A DNA stretch of 64,000 nt from Syntrophobacteraceae bacterium. GTDB taxonomy: Bacteria; Desulfobacterota; Syntrophobacteria; Syntrophobacterales; Syntrophobacteraceae. The notes below the pieces were generated by a model that did not search any database, was not told where the DNA came from, and saw only the letters and a program-made list of their open reading frames with translations. The position numbers were made by a program, and so were the translations under genes. Positions 43,442-51,374 of this stretch are shown one piece after another. The stretch covers positions 1 through 64,000 of the forward strand of contig JALOOX010000006.1 in the NCBI GenBank assembly GCA_025454175.1. Reading direction: 5' to 3'. Numbering within the stretch: position 1 is the first letter of the stretch; each line of letters begins with the position of its first letter.

Positions 43442-43999
43442 TCATTTCAGGTAGACACTCTCCAGGTGATCCAGCATCCGGTGAAGCTCCTCGTGCCTGC
43501 CGACGCCGATCCTGTCGACCTCGATCCTCTCGAAGCCTGCGGATAGCTCGGCCTGTCCGGCCTCGGGAAGCTCCTTTTCGGCGATGGGAAACAAGACGTT
43601 GTCTTCCTTGTCAGTGTGTTGATCCAGGAGGCCGACATACCCTCGGGCCTCCCGGATGAAACCGGTCCCCGCAGCAGCGTCTCCAGCCTTGTATTCCGAA
43701 AGCCTGGACTTCATCTGCCGCACATACTCGCGTCCCCGCTCATGCTCTTCCAGCATCACGCCGATGGGGCCGCCCTCCTTCCTGACGCCCACGGCCTCCA
43801 GCGCGGGGAAGAGCAGCTGCTCCTCCTTGCCGTGGTGACATTGGTCCACGAATACGGAGAAAAATTCCAGCAGTTGATCGATGTGGCGTACATCGACCGC
43901 CCGGCCGGGCTGTTCCATCCTCCGGCAAAGGGTCTCGAGCACCCGGAGCGTCATCTTGACCGCCTGGTGCTCCATTTTCAGCTCGTCTATCGGGCCCAT
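43442..43999 (-). CDS. Hemerythrin HHE-domain protein
   Basis: LKMEHQAVK ... DQCHHGKEEQLLFPAL ... EEHERGREYV ... DQHTDKEDNVLFPIAE. Confidence 0.9.
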   Translation of the reverse strand: MGPIDELKMEHQAVKMTLRVLETLCRRMEQPGRAVDVRHIDQLLEFFSVFVDQCHHGKEEQLLFPALEAVGVRKEGGPIGVMLEEHERGREYVRQMKSRLSEYKAGDAAAGTGFIREARGYVGLLDQHTDKEDNVLFPIAEKELPEAGQAELSAGFERIEVDRIGVGRHEELHRMLDHLESVYLK

Positions 44000-44030: not shown

Positions 44031-44486
44031 TCAGCCTTCGCTCTCCGCCTCGTCCGCGCGGCACTCCGCCTCCAGCCGCGCCAGGCGCTGCCGGGTCGCT
44101 TTGTCGCGATTCCACCGTTCGGTCACGTCCCGGAGGATGGCGGCGATTCCTTCGAGGCGACCATCCCCGTCATGGAGCGGAACCAGGGTAAACTCCACGG
44201 AGATGCGGCTTCCATCTTTTCTCGAGGCGGGCACGGCCAGCAGATCCGACTCGTATCGGCTGGTGCCCGCCGCCATGACCTTGTGGTAGCCTTCCCAGTG
44301 GCGGCCTCTCAAGGATTCGGGGATGATGAGATCCAGGCTCTCCCCCAGGGCTTCGGACCGGGAGTAGCCGAACATGCGCTCGGCCCCGGTATTCCACAAC
44401 CGAATGAGACCCTCTCGGTCCGAGGCAATGATGGCGTCCCGGGCATTGTCCACGATTTTCCGGTACACCTGTTCATACCGTTCCAT
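44031..44486 (-). CDS. Single PAS/PAC-domain protein
   Basis: IVDNARDAIIASDREGLIRLWNTGAERMFGYSRSEALGESLDLIIPESLRGRHWEGY...ILRDVTERWNRD; starts directly after the norB stop. Confidence 0.85.
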   Translation of the reverse strand: MERYEQVYRKIVDNARDAIIASDREGLIRLWNTGAERMFGYSRSEALGESLDLIIPESLRGRHWEGYHKVMAAGTSRYESDLLAVPASRKDGSRISVEFTLVPLHDGDGRLEGIAAILRDVTERWNRDKATRQRLARLEAECRADEAESEG

Positions 44487-44488
44487 GA

Positions 44489-46765
44489 TCAAAGCTCCAC
44501 TCCCAGCCGCTGCCACACCGACTCCCCTTCCTTGATTTCGACGGCCTTGAGACGCGGGTAGGTCTTGAAGAGAAAAATGAGCAGCGGCGTCACGCCCAGC
44601 AGGATGATGATCAAATCCGGGATGACCCGGACCGTGCCGATGAACTGCACAAAAGGCTTCATGAAGAAGGACGCATCGCGGGCCACCCAGAAGCCTTCCT
44701 TGAAGCTCACCCAGGTCTGGAGCACACCCACCGGGAATAGGGTGCCCAGGGTCAGCAGCAGGAGCCCCACGTTGAAGCCGAAAAACGAGACCTGCAGCAG
44801 CCGGTCGTTCCAGTGATCCCGCTCCACCATACCCCGCCAGGAAAAGAGCAGGAGACCGATGGAGAGCATGCCGTAGACCCCGAAGAGGGCACCATGAGCG
44901 TGGTTCATGGTGAGGTAGGTTCCATGCTCGTAGTAGTTGATCAGCGGGAGATTGATGAGAAAGCCGAACACCCCCGCGCCCAGAAAATTCCAGAAGGACG
45001 AGGCCACCAGGAAGTACATGGGCCATTTGTATAGAAACTCCTTCCCCTGGCCCCGGATGGATTTGTACTCCAGGAGCCCCCGCACCACCAGGCCGAAGAG
45101 CGGGATGGGCTCCATGGACGAGAAGACCGAGCCGATTCCCAGCCAAAACGACGGTCCCCCGTACCAGAAGTAATGGTGAGCTGTCCCGAGGATGCCGCTC
45201 AGGAAGACGATGGCGGCCGTGAAATAGGCCACCATGAGGGCCGCCCGGGCCGATGCCAGGTTCATCACCACGAGGAGCAGCGAGATGATGGCGATTCCGA
45301 AGAACTCGAAGATGGACTCCACCCAGATGTGCACCACGAACCAGCGCCAGTAGTCGGCGATGGTGAGGTGCGAGCCGCGGCCGTAGAAGAGCCCGAACCC
45401 GAAAAAGGCCACCACGAGGACGGCGCTGAAAAGGTAAAAGAGGATGAGGGAGGTGAGCTCGTCCCGATGCTTGAGCCTGAGATGATGGGAAATGGGGCGG
45501 TACACGATGAGGAGCCAGGCGATGAGGCCGATGAAGAGAAGAATCTGCCAGAGGCGCCCCAGCTCGAGGAACTCCCAGCCCTGGTGCCCCAGCCAGAACC
45601 ACATGTCGCCCAGGTAGCCCTTGATGCCGGCGATCTCGCCCAGGAGACTGCCCACGGCCACGATGAGGATCGCCACGAAGAGGAGCTGCACCAGGAGCCC
45701 CTGGCGTTTGGGCTCGATGCCGCCCACGATGGGGGCCAGGTAAATGGCCGATCCCACCCAGGTGGTGGCGATCCAGAAGATGGCGAGCTGCAGGTGCCAG
45801 GTCTTGGCCCAGCTGTAGGGGATGAGCTCCGCCACATAGGGAGCCCAGAAGCTGGCCGGATGGATGGTGTAGTGGGCCAGGAGGCCGCCGAAGTTGGTCT
45901 GGAGGAGAAAGAGGAGAATAACCACCAGGAAGTACTTGGCGGCTTTCATCTGGCTGGGGGTGAGGGGCATGTCCACGAGCTTCTGGGCCAGGTCCGCTCC
46001 CCGGGTCGGGCCGTACCAGAGACCGAAGTAATGGATGCAGAAGATGAAAAGGCCCAGGACGACGAAAAGAGCGATGATGCCCCCGAGGGTCCAGAGGTAG
46101 ACGGCGAGGGTCGGCACATTGCCCACGGACCGGTCCGCGGGCCAGTTGTTCGTATAGGTGTAATCACTTCCGGGGCGGAGGGTGGAGGCGACCCAGGCGG
46201 TCCAGAAAAAAAACCGTCCGATCTGGAGGCGCTCTTCGGCTGTGGGGACCGTGCCCGGCAGGAACCCGTAAAGGAAATCCCCCGTGGTGAAAAGCCCGTC
46301 CCAGTGCTTCGTGACGGCCTCCAGGGCCTTCGTCTGGGCCGGGGTCAGGACCAGCTTGTCATTGGTCGCGTCATACCGATTGGTCCTGATTTCGTTCCTT
46401 GTCTTGAGAGCGACGATCTCCTGGTCCAGGGCGGTGAGCTCCCCGTAGGGCTTTCGGTATTCCCGAAGACTGATCTCCCGTCGGACCGCGTCGCCCAGCA
46501 GGTGCAGCGTGAAGGCGCTGAAGTCTGGCCCCCGCTGGGCGCCGTGTCCCCAGACGCTGCCGTGGTCCATGAGCCCGTATCGCTGGTAGACGTCCTGTCC
46601 CTTGAAGATGTCGTCCCTGGTGAAAAGTGCCTTTCCGGACGCATCCAGGACCTCTCCCGGGTAGGGCGGCACCTGGTCCTTGGCCAGGTGCCCACCCCCG
46701 AGAAGCAGGGCCAGGGATACTACAAAACTGAGAATGGCTGCCTTTCTGAGATTCTCGATGGACAT
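44489..46765 (-). CDS. norB: Quinol-dependent nitric oxide reductase (qNOR)
   Basis: 758 aa; GKALFTRDDIFKGQDVYQRYGLMDHGSVWGHGA; VVHIWVESIFEFF, GTAHHYFWYGGPSFWLGIGSVFSSMEPIPL, MNHAHGALFGVYGM. Confidence 0.94.
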   Translation of the reverse strand: MSIENLRKAAILSFVVSLALLLGGGHLAKDQVPPYPGEVLDASGKALFTRDDIFKGQDVYQRYGLMDHGSVWGHGAQRGPDFSAFTLHLLGDAVRREISLREYRKPYGELTALDQEIVALKTRNEIRTNRYDATNDKLVLTPAQTKALEAVTKHWDGLFTTGDFLYGFLPGTVPTAEERLQIGRFFFWTAWVASTLRPGSDYTYTNNWPADRSVGNVPTLAVYLWTLGGIIALFVVLGLFIFCIHYFGLWYGPTRGADLAQKLVDMPLTPSQMKAAKYFLVVILLFLLQTNFGGLLAHYTIHPASFWAPYVAELIPYSWAKTWHLQLAIFWIATTWVGSAIYLAPIVGGIEPKRQGLLVQLLFVAILIVAVGSLLGEIAGIKGYLGDMWFWLGHQGWEFLELGRLWQILLFIGLIAWLLIVYRPISHHLRLKHRDELTSLILFYLFSAVLVVAFFGFGLFYGRGSHLTIADYWRWFVVHIWVESIFEFFGIAIISLLLVVMNLASARAALMVAYFTAAIVFLSGILGTAHHYFWYGGPSFWLGIGSVFSSMEPIPLFGLVVRGLLEYKSIRGQGKEFLYKWPMYFLVASSFWNFLGAGVFGFLINLPLINYYEHGTYLTMNHAHGALFGVYGMLSIGLLLFSWRGMVERDHWNDRLLQVSFFGFNVGLLLLTLGTLFPVGVLQTWVSFKEGFWVARDASFFMKPFVQFIGTVRVIPDLIIILLGVTPLLIFLFKTYPRLKAVEIKEGESVWQRLGVEL

Positions 46766-46913
46766 GGCTTCCTCCTTCCTCCTGAGGATGTCCAGGTTCA
46801 CAACGGCGAGCCCTCGCGGGAGTGAACCGACGCGAAGCGGCAAAAGTCCTTGTCATCGAACCGGGATGGGGATGCGAAGGGGGAAATGGCGAGACCCCCC
46901 CTTCGCCGGTGAA

Positions 46914-48542
46914 TCAGCCGAGGATGGCTTTCAGGTCCTCATCGGGCGTGCTGATGGGCATGATGTTGAAATTCTTGACCAGCACGTCGAGGACATTGGG
47001 CGTCACGAAAGCCGGAAGCGAAGGCCCCAGCCGGATGTTTCTGATGCCGAGATGGAAGAGGGTGAGCAGGATGGCCACGGCTTTTTGTTCATACCAGGAG
47101 CATATGATCGAAAGGGGAAGATCGTTGACGCCGACGTTGAAGGCCTTGGCCAGGGCCACTGCGATCTGGATGGCCGAATAGGCGTCGTTGCACTGGCCCA
47201 CGTCCATGAGCCTTGGAAGGCCGTCGATGGTCCCGAGGTCCTTGTCGAAAAACCTGAACTTGCCACAGGCGAAGGTCAACACCACGCAGTCGCTCGGCAC
47301 CTTTTCCACGAATTCCGTGTAGTAGTTCCGGCCGGGCTTGGCCCCGTCGCAGCCGGCAACCACGAAGAAGTGGCGGATGGCCTTGCCCTTGACAGCCTCG
47401 ATCACCTTGTCGGCAACCCCCAGAACCGTGTTCCTGGCAAAACCGACCATGACTTCCTTGCCGTTGGAATCGTCGGTGAAGCCGGGGAGGCTCAGGGCCT
47501 TCTGAATGACGGAGGTGAAATCGCGGTTTCCGATATGGGGGACCCCCGGCCAGCCCACGATGCCCGACGTGAAGATGTTTTCCGCGTAGGCCCCCTGCGG
47601 GCGCTGGATGCAGTTGGTGGTCATGAGGATGGCGCCCGGAAACTGGCTGAATTCCTTGGCCTGGTTCTGCCAGGCCGTTCCGAAATGGCCAAAGAAGTGG
47701 GGATGCGCCTTGAGCTTCGGATAGCCGTGGGTGGGGAGCATCTCGCCGTGGGAGTAGATATCGATCCCCTTGCCCTCGGTCTGCTTGAGGAGCTCCTCGA
47801 GGTCTTTCAGGTCATGGCCCGAGACCAGGATGGCCTTGCCTTTGCGGTGCCCCAGGGGGACCTTCGTCGGAACCGGGTGCCCGTAGGCTCCCGTGTTGCC
47901 GGCATCCAGGAGCTCCATGGCCTTGAGGTTCACTTCGCCGCACTTGAGGGTCAGTCCCACCCAGTCGTTGAGCTCCAGGTCCTTGTTCATCATGGCCGCC
48001 AGGGCTTCATGAACGAAGGCGTAAACGGTATCGTCCTCCTGCCCCAGGATCTGGGCGTGGTCGGCGTAGGCGCTGATGCCTCGGAGACCGAAGAGCACCG
48101 TGTGCTGAAGGGAGAGGATATCCGGATTGACGGTGGGGTCCGACTTGAGGCCCACTTTTTCCCCCTGCGCCACCATGCCTTCGAGGGTCGATGCCGGGGT
48201 AAAGGTCGCGGTGTCCTCGGCGAAGTCCGCCTTGCCGCCGGCGGCTTTCACCCTGGACTTCAAATCGTCTCGAAGCTCGACGGCACGCCGGACAAAGGCT
48301 GCGATGTCGGCAGGATCGAAGTTCACGTTGGTGAGGGTCGAGAACATGGCCTCACAGGTGAATACATTGACCGCGCGATCGTTCACGCCGACCTTGCGCC
48401 CCTCCACCGCGAAAAGGGCGAGCCCCTTCATGGCGTGGGTCAGGAGATCCTGGAGGGCCGCAACGTCAGGCTGCTTGCCGCAAACGCCCATCTTATCGCA
48501 ACCCTGGCCCTTTGCCGTCTGTTCGCACTGGTAGCAAAACAT
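46914..48542 (-). CDS. hcp: Hybrid cluster protein / hydroxylamine reductase
   Basis: MFCYQCEQTAKGQGCDKMGVCGKQPDVAALQD; GVNDLPLSIICSWYEQKAVAILLTLFHLGIRNIRLGPSLPAF. Confidence 0.97.
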   Translation of the reverse strand: MFCYQCEQTAKGQGCDKMGVCGKQPDVAALQDLLTHAMKGLALFAVEGRKVGVNDRAVNVFTCEAMFSTLTNVNFDPADIAAFVRRAVELRDDLKSRVKAAGGKADFAEDTATFTPASTLEGMVAQGEKVGLKSDPTVNPDILSLQHTVLFGLRGISAYADHAQILGQEDDTVYAFVHEALAAMMNKDLELNDWVGLTLKCGEVNLKAMELLDAGNTGAYGHPVPTKVPLGHRKGKAILVSGHDLKDLEELLKQTEGKGIDIYSHGEMLPTHGYPKLKAHPHFFGHFGTAWQNQAKEFSQFPGAILMTTNCIQRPQGAYAENIFTSGIVGWPGVPHIGNRDFTSVIQKALSLPGFTDDSNGKEVMVGFARNTVLGVADKVIEAVKGKAIRHFFVVAGCDGAKPGRNYYTEFVEKVPSDCVVLTFACGKFRFFDKDLGTIDGLPRLMDVGQCNDAYSAIQIAVALAKAFNVGVNDLPLSIICSWYEQKAVAILLTLFHLGIRNIRLGPSLPAFVTPNVLDVLVKNFNIMPISTPDEDLKAILG

Positions 48543-48575: not shown

Positions 48576-48737
48576 CTATGGCAGTTTCACGAACTCGCTC
48601 TTGGGCGCCCCACAGGGGGGACAGACCCAGTCGTCGGGCAAGTCCTCGAAGGTCGTCCCGGGCGCGATCCCGTTTTCGGGGTCGCCCACCGCCGGGTCGT
48701 ACACATAGCCGCAGATGGTGCATTCATACTTGTCCAT
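48576..48737 (-). CDS. Rubredoxin
   Basis: [53 protein letters not shown]. Confidence 0.97.
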
Positions 48738-48913
48738 GAGTCTCCTTTCCCGAGGTTGAAGGATTCCGTTGCCTATGGGTTGTCGCTGCCTCGCATCGGT
48801 TCTCCCGCAAATAGCTCCGGCCGTCCCCAAGGCGAAAGATTGGGCCGAGCCGACGGAGGACCTTGTGGTCCCGGGTCATCGCAAGCCCGACCAGCTTTCC
48901 TTCTTGCACCGGC

Positions 48914-48954
48914 ATGATAACGCGACGGGGGAAACTGTCCTTGACAAGAGTCAA
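48914..48954 (-). promoter_or_regulatory. Candidate HcpR/FNR-CRP-type class II promoter of the rubredoxin-hcp-norB operon
   Basis: TTGAC-N4-GTCAA at 48941-48954; on the minus strand a TATCAT -10-like hexamer at 48919-48914 puts the site centre at about -40.5/-41.5. Confidence 0.6.
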
Positions 48955-49103
48955 GAAAATCATTCTCAACGCCGGCAGCCAGTGCGAGAAGTCGGTTTTT
49001 GCTGATTCGCCCTCGAAAGCTTCGAGCTTCAAGGCTAAGGTTTCAAGTTGAATACCAGCGCCGCCGGAAGCCTTTTGATCGGCTCGGGGCACATGAGGAG
49101 CGG

Positions 49104-51374
49104 CTACTGGGGCAGGCTGAGGTTCAGAAGCAGGAGGTCCGGGTCCTTGCGGCGAAGCTGGAGCACCCCGCGGTGCTTATGGATGATCATCTTGGCGAGG
49201 GGGAGATCAATGGCTCGAGAAGGGTCCATGCGAGTGGTGAAGGGGTAGAAGAAATGCTCGATATCGTCCGCTGAAACCACGGCGCCCTTGAGGATCATCT
49301 CGAGGTGGACCAGGCTCTCACCGGGGTAAGTCTGGACTTCGAGCTTTCCCGCCGAGGGGCAGTGGCCGATCATGGCTTGTATGGTGCTGCCCAGGGCCTT
49401 CTTGAAGAGCGGTTTGTCCAGGGGGATGAACGGAAGGGAAATGGAAAGGTTGAGGCCGCAGGCGACGGAGTGCTCGGCAAGCAGATCCTTCTGTTCTTCC
49501 AGCACCTGGATGAGGAGGTCGTTGAGCGATCCTCTCTCGAGGCTGACCTCGAATGGCCTCAGGTAGGCCAGGGTTTTTTCAAGGATCTTCTCCAGCCGCG
49601 CCACTTCCTGAACGATGATCTGGACCTTCTCCCGATTGGAGTCCCCCGCCGGAAGGTTCTCCAGGAGGCGGCGGGCGAATCCCCCCGCCGCCACCAGGGG
49701 GTTGCGTATCTCATGGCCCAGGCGGGCCGAAATCTCGGTCAGCGTCCTCAATTCCTCCGTCTGCAGGATTTGCTGCTGCAGCCTGTGCCTGTCGGTCACG
49801 TTGACGAGGAAGCCGTCCACGATCTCGACCTGACCTTTTTCGTCGAGCACCGGTATGGCATGATCGAGGACGAAGATGGATTTGCCGTTGGTGTGGGTGA
49901 CGCGATATTCAGACTTGAACTCACTGCCTTCCCGAAGGCAGCGCTCCATGAGGGGCCAGACCCTGTCCCTGTCGTCCTCGACGACCTTTTGCCTCCAGAA
50001 GTGGGGATTCTCCATGGCCTCTCGAGCTGAAACCCCCATGAGCTCCTCGATGAAGTGGTTGACGAAAATCAGGCGGCCATTGGAAATCAGTCGATAGACG
50101 ACCAGGGGCACGCTCTCCACGAGGGTGCGGTACTTCTCTTCGGACTCCCGGAGGGCCCGGGTGCGGAGGTGCACCATGTGCTCGAGGTTTTCCGCGTACT
50201 CCTGGATCTTTTCGCGGGATTCCTCCAACGAAAGCAGCATTTCATCCAGGGCTTCGGCCAGCACCCCCAGCTCGCCCGACGGTCTCAGGCCGGATGGGTG
50301 AACGTGGGCTCCGGTGGCGATTTCCCGGGCAAAGCTCACCATCTTTCCGATGGGTCTGCTGAAATAGAGACTGATGAAGTAAATGGCTCCCATGGAGAAG
50401 ACCATTCCCAGCACACCCACCCCGATCATGATCCGACGGTAGTGAGCCGTGATGGCAAGGGTCTCGGTGCGGTCGACACAGAACTCCACCAGCCCGATCG
50501 TTCGCCCCTCGTAATCCTTGACGACCCTGAGCCAGATAGCGAAGGGCGTTCCCCCAATCCTCCGGATCAGCACTTCCGGAGTGCCCTGTTGAAAGACCCT
50601 CGCATAGGCGGGATCATCTCGATCGAAAGGCTCGGTGAAGGTTGTCGCGTAGGGTGAAAAGCCGGTCCCGTCCTTTCTGGGGAGGAGGAGCGTGGCCTCG
50701 ATGCCGAACTGCTCCTTCATTTCCTTCATCAGTATGCGACCGAAATTGAAGCCGATTTCCGTGGTTCCCACCAGCTGGCCCTGGTGGATCACGGGCGCAA
50801 CCCCGCGGATGCCGTATCCCGTGAGGCCCTCTTCCAGCCCGAAGGTCTCACTCAATGTTGCAACAGCGTCGTGGATGGTTCGGCGATACTCGAGGCCGTC
50901 ACCGAATTCATAAAGCCTCTGGAGCCGGAGAAACATCCTGGGCGGCAGCGTGTGAAAATTGAACTGGCTGATGCCGTAGTGCGCCTTCATGAAGGTGAAG
51001 GAAGAATAACACAGCTCGATGAGACGAAGGCGGTCACGTTTGGCGAGGGCCTCGGCTATTTCGGGATTGCGCGCGAAGCTTGAGGCCAGGCTCACGGCCC
51101 ACCGCCCCTGTCGGTCGATCTTGTGCTCGAAGGCATTGTCATAGCCGTTGAGCCTCTCGATCTCTCCGCGCTCGATGAGCTCATTCTCGCTGCGTATGGC
51201 CAGGCCCACCAGGGAGACCGTCCCGATAAAAGCGAGGAACAGGAACGGAATGCTCAATCGGTACCGGAGGGGCATGTCGCGCAGCTTCTCCAGCAAAAAA
51301 GCGCCCCCGGTCCTCCGGGCTGTGGAATCACCCTCGACGGTTCTCATTCCGAAACCTTGTTTTGCGTCCGCCAT
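49104..51374 (-). CDS. PAS-containing membrane sensor histidine kinase with degenerate ATPase domain
   Basis: N-terminal TM and periplasmic sensor, HAMP-like region, PAS, H-box ISARLGHEIRNPL; canonical N-box Asn and DxGxG absent. Confidence 0.85.
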   Translation of the reverse strand: MADAKQGFGMRTVEGDSTARRTGGAFLLEKLRDMPLRYRLSIPFLFLAFIGTVSLVGLAIRSENELIERGEIERLNGYDNAFEHKIDRQGRWAVSLASSFARNPEIAEALAKRDRLRLIELCYSSFTFMKAHYGISQFNFHTLPPRMFLRLQRLYEFGDGLEYRRTIHDAVATLSETFGLEEGLTGYGIRGVAPVIHQGQLVGTTEIGFNFGRILMKEMKEQFGIEATLLLPRKDGTGFSPYATTFTEPFDRDDPAYARVFQQGTPEVLIRRIGGTPFAIWLRVVKDYEGRTIGLVEFCVDRTETLAITAHYRRIMIGVGVLGMVFSMGAIYFISLYFSRPIGKMVSFAREIATGAHVHPSGLRPSGELGVLAEALDEMLLSLEESREKIQEYAENLEHMVHLRTRALRESEEKYRTLVESVPLVVYRLISNGRLIFVNHFIEELMGVSAREAMENPHFWRQKVVEDDRDRVWPLMERCLREGSEFKSEYRVTHTNGKSIFVLDHAIPVLDEKGQVEIVDGFLVNVTDRHRLQQQILQTEELRTLTEISARLGHEIRNPLVAAGGFARRLLENLPAGDSNREKVQIIVQEVARLEKILEKTLAYLRPFEVSLERGSLNDLLIQVLEEQKDLLAEHSVACGLNLSISLPFIPLDKPLFKKALGSTIQAMIGHCPSAGKLEVQTYPGESLVHLEMILKGAVVSADDIEHFFYPFTTRMDPSRAIDLPLAKMIIHKHRGVLQLRRKDPDLLLLNLSLPQ

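Follow-up and report, generated by a model that had tools for sequence, protein, structure and literature searches.

A probable HcpR-dependent promoter of a nitric-oxide-defence operon, predicted within the relic of a permease gene in a Syntrophobacteraceae bacterium

Background

In delta-proteobacteria the HcpR1 motif has been given as wyTTGACnnnnGTCAArw and goes with Ser or Pro at position 180 of the regulator (PMC1274295, PMC545781). A correlation has been published between the recognition helix and the operator, in which R180 is paired with G3 (TGTGA-type sites) and Ser/Pro180 together with E181 is paired with TTGAC (PMC1274295). HcpR of Porphyromonas gingivalis and HcpR1 of Desulfovibrio desulfuricans belong to the CRP/FNR family and are heme-binding NO-response regulators (PMC12750200; PMC5701242). 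Our literature search found no paper naming HcpR together with Syntrophobacter. Here we describe a locus in a 64-kb stretch of a Syntrophobacteraceae genome, the whole of which is called the window below. On the evidence of its sequence, it is quite probable that this locus holds an HcpR-dependent class II promoter of a nitric-oxide-defence operon, seated in the relic of a permease gene that once lay upstream.

The predicted promoter and its operon

Read on the minus strand from 48954 to 48914, the locus consists of TTGACTCTTGTCAA, a 21-nt spacer, GGACAGTTTCCCCCGTCGCGT, and then TATCAT. The initial annotation had placed a palindrome at 48941-48954 and a TATCAT hexamer at 48919-48914 on the minus strand, and both sequence and coordinates are borne out; its arithmetic, by which the hexamer leads to a start near 48907 and to a palindrome centre at -40.5, is likewise correct. 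The leader, put there at about 170 nt, counts 167 nt up to the rubredoxin ATG at 48740, and the rubredoxin-hcp-norB order claimed for the downstream genes agrees with family matches, with genes for a PAS-domain protein and a hemerythrin continuing on the same strand. The elements are as follows.

48941 to 48954, no strand assigned: predicted HcpR operator, TTGACAAGAGTCAA, read on the minus strand as TTGACTCTTGTCAA; based on sequence, matrix and published motif
48914 to 48919, minus strand: -10 hexamer TATCAT, separated from the palindrome by 21 nt, where most relatives have 22 nt
48741 to 48907, minus strand: predicted leader of 167 nt, with the predicted +1 at 48907 inferred from the -10
48576 to 48740, minus strand: rubredoxin (PF00301, NF045768)
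46914 to 48542, minus strand: hcp, hybrid cluster protein (PF03063, TIGR01703)
44489 to 46780, minus strand: norB, quinol-type nitric oxide reductase, a single subunit with a cytochrome c-like domain (PF22085, PF00115)
44031 to 44510, minus strand: PAS-domain protein (start approximate)
43442 to 43999, minus strand: hemerythrin HHE protein (PF01814)

The gene upstream of the palindrome encodes a sensor kinase and ends at 49104; since it also lies on the minus strand, there is no divergent gene competing for the palindrome. No intrinsic terminator was found between the kinase gene and the palindrome, and the leader RNA shows no unusual fold (z = 0.17). A scan of 48700-49200 for sigma-70-like promoters returned a sole match, which uses the TATCAT of the predicted HcpR promoter, and no alternative promoter of this type was detected in that interval. 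Rubredoxin lies directly before hcp in the present genome (G000), in a genome of the same genus (G001) and in a third genome (G008), which hints that rubredoxin may give electrons to Hcp.

The predicted regulator and the distinctness of the site

The initial annotation had taken the palindrome for an HcpR-type pattern and had looked to the rest of the genome for a regulator of the HcpR/FNR family and for further sites. The pattern, TTGACnnnnGTCAA, has been published as the HcpR1 motif for delta-proteobacteria (PMC1274295), and the genome does encode one HcpR, a protein of HcpR1 type with 232 aa (C34:181288-181983, minus strand), divergently from a second hcp gene (hcp2). Searching the genome by sequence patterns brought up eight exact sites in all. 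Two further sites, having class II geometry, are situated between hcpR and hcp2. Five other exact palindromes of the genome (L003, L005-L008) have far lower scores, the best full score being 10.2 bits, and were set aside.

HcpR contains no cysteine, and its recognition helix, GTIPETLSRI, has P180 and E181 in CRP numbering. The same helix is found in all 30 of the 30 HcpR orthologues examined, and an hcpR gene is present in 38 of 40 related genomes. Two more Crp-type HTH proteins exist in the genome (C36 and C97), making three with HcpR, and either might in principle be the protein that uses the palindrome; their helices, GASREMVSRI (R180/E181) and TGAHRVSITRA (H180/R181), are however of types other than the Ser/Pro180 plus E181 with which TTGAC correlates, and we regard this assignment as highly improbable. 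For HcpR itself, the features of an HcpR1 regulon are found together: an operator upstream of the operon, hcp among the targets, an HcpR orthologue linked to hcp, a Pro180/Glu181 helix without FNR-type cysteines, and relatives that keep the site before hcp. The prediction that the site is an HcpR operator is thereby supported, and regulation of such sites is already known; as far as can be read from sequence, the operon is an ordinary predicted member of the HcpR regulon, of mildly unusual origin.

How far the site stands out from chance was assessed with a scoring matrix trained on the hcp promoters of 80 relatives, from which the window locus and its close relatives were excluded. The minus-strand reading scores 24.5 bits, the top value in the 64-kb window, with 5.8 bits at the next different place and 6.4 bits when the palindrome is read on the plus strand instead. 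The operator score of 20.4 bits is near the bottom of the training range (19.4 to 33.8; median 28.3), and the operator flanks agree with the matrix, with TTC before and GG after the palindrome. Exact TTGACNNNNGTCAA is met only once in the window; with at most one mismatch there are three matches against 1.48 expected, so that the count of the pattern in the window is by itself not significant. Over the 4.45 Mb of the genome, the eight exact sites compare with one for the reversed pattern, and therefore about 7e-4 exact sites are expected in any given 365-bp gap. Taken in its setting, the site exceeds what chance would give.

Conservation and spacing among relatives

Relatives were compared through a set of 110 hcp loci, in which sites were sought within 600 bp of hcp; TTGAY-N4-RTCAA precedes hcp in 76 of them, some of the 110 having incomplete upstream sequence. 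When hcp sites are aligned on the palindrome, G occupies the second base after it in 90%, and a -10 follows exactly 22 nt downstream, with its T conserved in 90% and its A in 94%, which puts the site centre of the relatives at -41.5. A central TA step, found in about 90% of relatives, is absent from the present operator. Operator and -10 combined into one signature occur 57 times in 37 of the 56 genomes of the class, as against none for the reversed control. This class-wide signature (operator, 22 nt, TAnnnT) is usable for annotating HcpR targets.

The class II geometry claimed in the initial annotation stands in part. A centre at -40.5 was obtained, and hcp promoters follow a class II rule throughout the class; the norm, however, is -41.5, since the TA of the -10 falls in that register in 72 of 83 hcp sites and in the -40.5 register in only three, the present one included. 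The 21-nt spacing is common to G001 and G008 and is seen at one further locus in a looser set. Because this spacing is unusual, the palindrome may be considered as a true HcpR operator that acts in some other way, from a start elsewhere, as a class I site or in repression. The strong preference of hcp sites for the -41.5 register favours such a reading, as does the prediction that HcpR represses some Desulfovibrio targets in which the site overlaps the -10 (PMC545781). Here, however, operator and -10 do not overlap, and TATCAT is identical in the three genomes. CRP/FNR activators also work at -40.5, as at E. coli deoP2, which counts against another mode of action, and we judge it unlikely.

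Activation in class II fashion remains the preferred reading. Computation yields the site with its rank and conservation, HcpR with its recognition helix, and the gene relic described below; from these we infer HcpR binding, activation, the start site and NO as the signal. HcpR, which belongs to the CRP/FNR family, lacks cysteine and has its gene in another part of the genome, would probably sense NO through heme, by analogy with P. gingivalis HcpR and D. desulfuricans HcpR1. The NO-activated dimer would bind TTGACTCTTGTCAA, overlapping the -35 position, and recruit RNA polymerase to TATCAT, and transcription would proceed from about 48907 through rubredoxin, hcp, norB and the PAS and hemerythrin genes. 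A permease gene would once have stood upstream in the same operon, and the promoter would have survived the loss of the transporter genes. A rubredoxin-hcp-qNOR operon of Syntrophobacteraceae may in this way be placed in the HcpR regulon, which makes rubredoxin a candidate for the protein that donates electrons to Hcp.

Probable origin of the promoter in a transporter gene

Two gene relics lie in the DNA before rubredoxin.

48913 to 48969, minus strand: relic of a DevC-type ABC permease gene, from its C-terminal part (57 bp, 79% identity to the intact G001 gene, E = 2e-8)
48818 to 48878, minus strand: relic of the 3′ end of a DevA-type ATPase gene (61 bp, 69% DNA identity, protein E = 8e-5)

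The permease relic encloses the operator and the -10, and its protein match runs on to 48883; the ATPase relic is collinear with it, as in the gene order of G001, which is TetR, a further ORF, permease, ATPase, rubredoxin, hcp, norB and PAS (L132, G001:C108:52000-66000). Judged by these similarities, the seemingly intergenic DNA is a decayed DevC-type permease gene together with a DevA-type ATPase gene. The further ORF after TetR in G001 looks like a membrane fusion protein, a label that comes from reading its sequence. A similar TetR gene is located immediately before hcp in G009 (L135:7521-8129), where the transporter is lacking. The window also contains a 122-aa open frame before rubredoxin (48724-49092, minus strand) that has permease and ATPase fragments in a single frame, as if fused by an in-frame deletion; it is probably no gene.

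The intact permease gene of G001 contains the exact palindrome, TTGACCTTGGTCAA, together with a TATCAT whose spacing is unchanged, both being part of its codons (L-T-L-V-K ... V-I-M). No HcpR site was detected by the matrix before the TetR gene that heads the G001 operon, and the permease-borne site is therefore the only HcpR-like site of that operon. In permease orthologues of other classes, which are 66% and 58% identical, INLTR and VSAAK are found instead and the palindrome is lacking, so that it is a derived trait of the lineage and is not demanded by the permease protein. Since operator and -10 occur at the homologous place of an intact gene, the promoter probably arose within permease coding sequence and outlived the transporter genes.

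The same facts allow the view that palindrome and TATCAT are a coding coincidence, that is, former permease codons not yet eroded and without function, the operon using another promoter. The promoter DNA is indeed of permease origin, permease codons could yield a palindrome by chance, 'FPRRV-I/V' is conserved among closer permease relatives, and both spacing and operator centre deviate from the consensus. Nevertheless, 'LTLVK' is not a feature of the permease family, as the two orthologues without the palindrome illustrate, and the chance that an exact site falls in this gap is only about 7e-4. The operator flanks fit as well, no other sigma-70-like promoter was found in 48700-49200, and G008 retains the 41-bp element without any intact permease. 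Coincidence is accordingly rather improbable in our estimate.

The 41-bp element, a predicted functional promoter in the reading that we prefer, has a single copy in each of G000, G001 and G008, in every case before rubredoxin-hcp, and was not found elsewhere in the 56 genomes with up to two mismatches. Among the three copies, all 16 of the 16 bases in the operator arms and the -10 are invariant, as against 11 of the 25 others (Fisher p = 1.3e-4), 14 of those 25 positions varying; with shared ancestry and three sequences only, this conservation is supportive and no proof of selection. Common descent accounts for part of it. Between G000 and G001, third codon positions are unchanged at 4 of 4 within the elements and at 5 of 10 outside, a hand count whose difference is not significant. 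From the sequence pattern, selection for the promoter is suggested. A permease origin of the G008 element, with its same frame and off-register -10, is plausible, but beyond the functional bases the resemblance is weak, and we do not claim it.

We lean slightly towards a fuller history, in which an HcpR-dependent promoter evolved inside the permease gene and drove ATPase, rubredoxin, hcp and norB from within, as it may still do in G001, and was kept as a free-standing promoter after the transporter had decayed in the present genome and, perhaps independently, in G008. If a coding-sequence origin is true, the locus would be a traceable case of an operator that was born in codons and survived its host gene.

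Other sites in the genome

About 130 nt upstream of feoA-feoA-feoB there is an exact site of HcpR type, its -10 in register (L171:1501-1542 = G000:C13:6070-6111; L230 = G001:C37), which suggests iron uptake as a predicted HcpR target. As a regulon member of the present genome, this site was set aside: contig C13 is 99.97% identical to a G001 contig over the 3 kb compared, whereas identity to G001 is 81-86% for the window and for the hcpR contig, and C13 has therefore probably strayed into one of the two assemblies. The completeness of the genome assembly is put at 97% and its contamination at 8.7%. Another class II signature site precedes NuoE/HndA-like genes by about 680 nt (L174:1501-1542 = G000:C119:25220-25261).

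Comparison with known systems

The closest described system is the HcpR1 regulon of delta-proteobacteria and cyanobacteria, with which the present locus shares the motif TTGACnnnnGTCAA, the Pro180 type of regulator and hcp as a target (Rodionov et al. 2004, 2005; PMC545781, PMC1274295). In that regulon norB has been predicted as a target for Synechocystis; here, by contrast, a single operon joins rubredoxin, hcp, norB, the PAS protein and hemerythrin, the distance to the -10 is 1 bp shorter than most relatives have it, and the site is within a gene relic. P. gingivalis HcpR and D. desulfuricans HcpR1 differ from the predicted system in their operator sequences, the latter protein binding TGTGA-N6-TCACA. 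Class II CRP/FNR promoters resemble the predicted one in having an activator site over the -35 position and a -10 at fixed spacing downstream, and the family norm of -41.5 is here replaced by a centre at -40.5, as counted from the -10.
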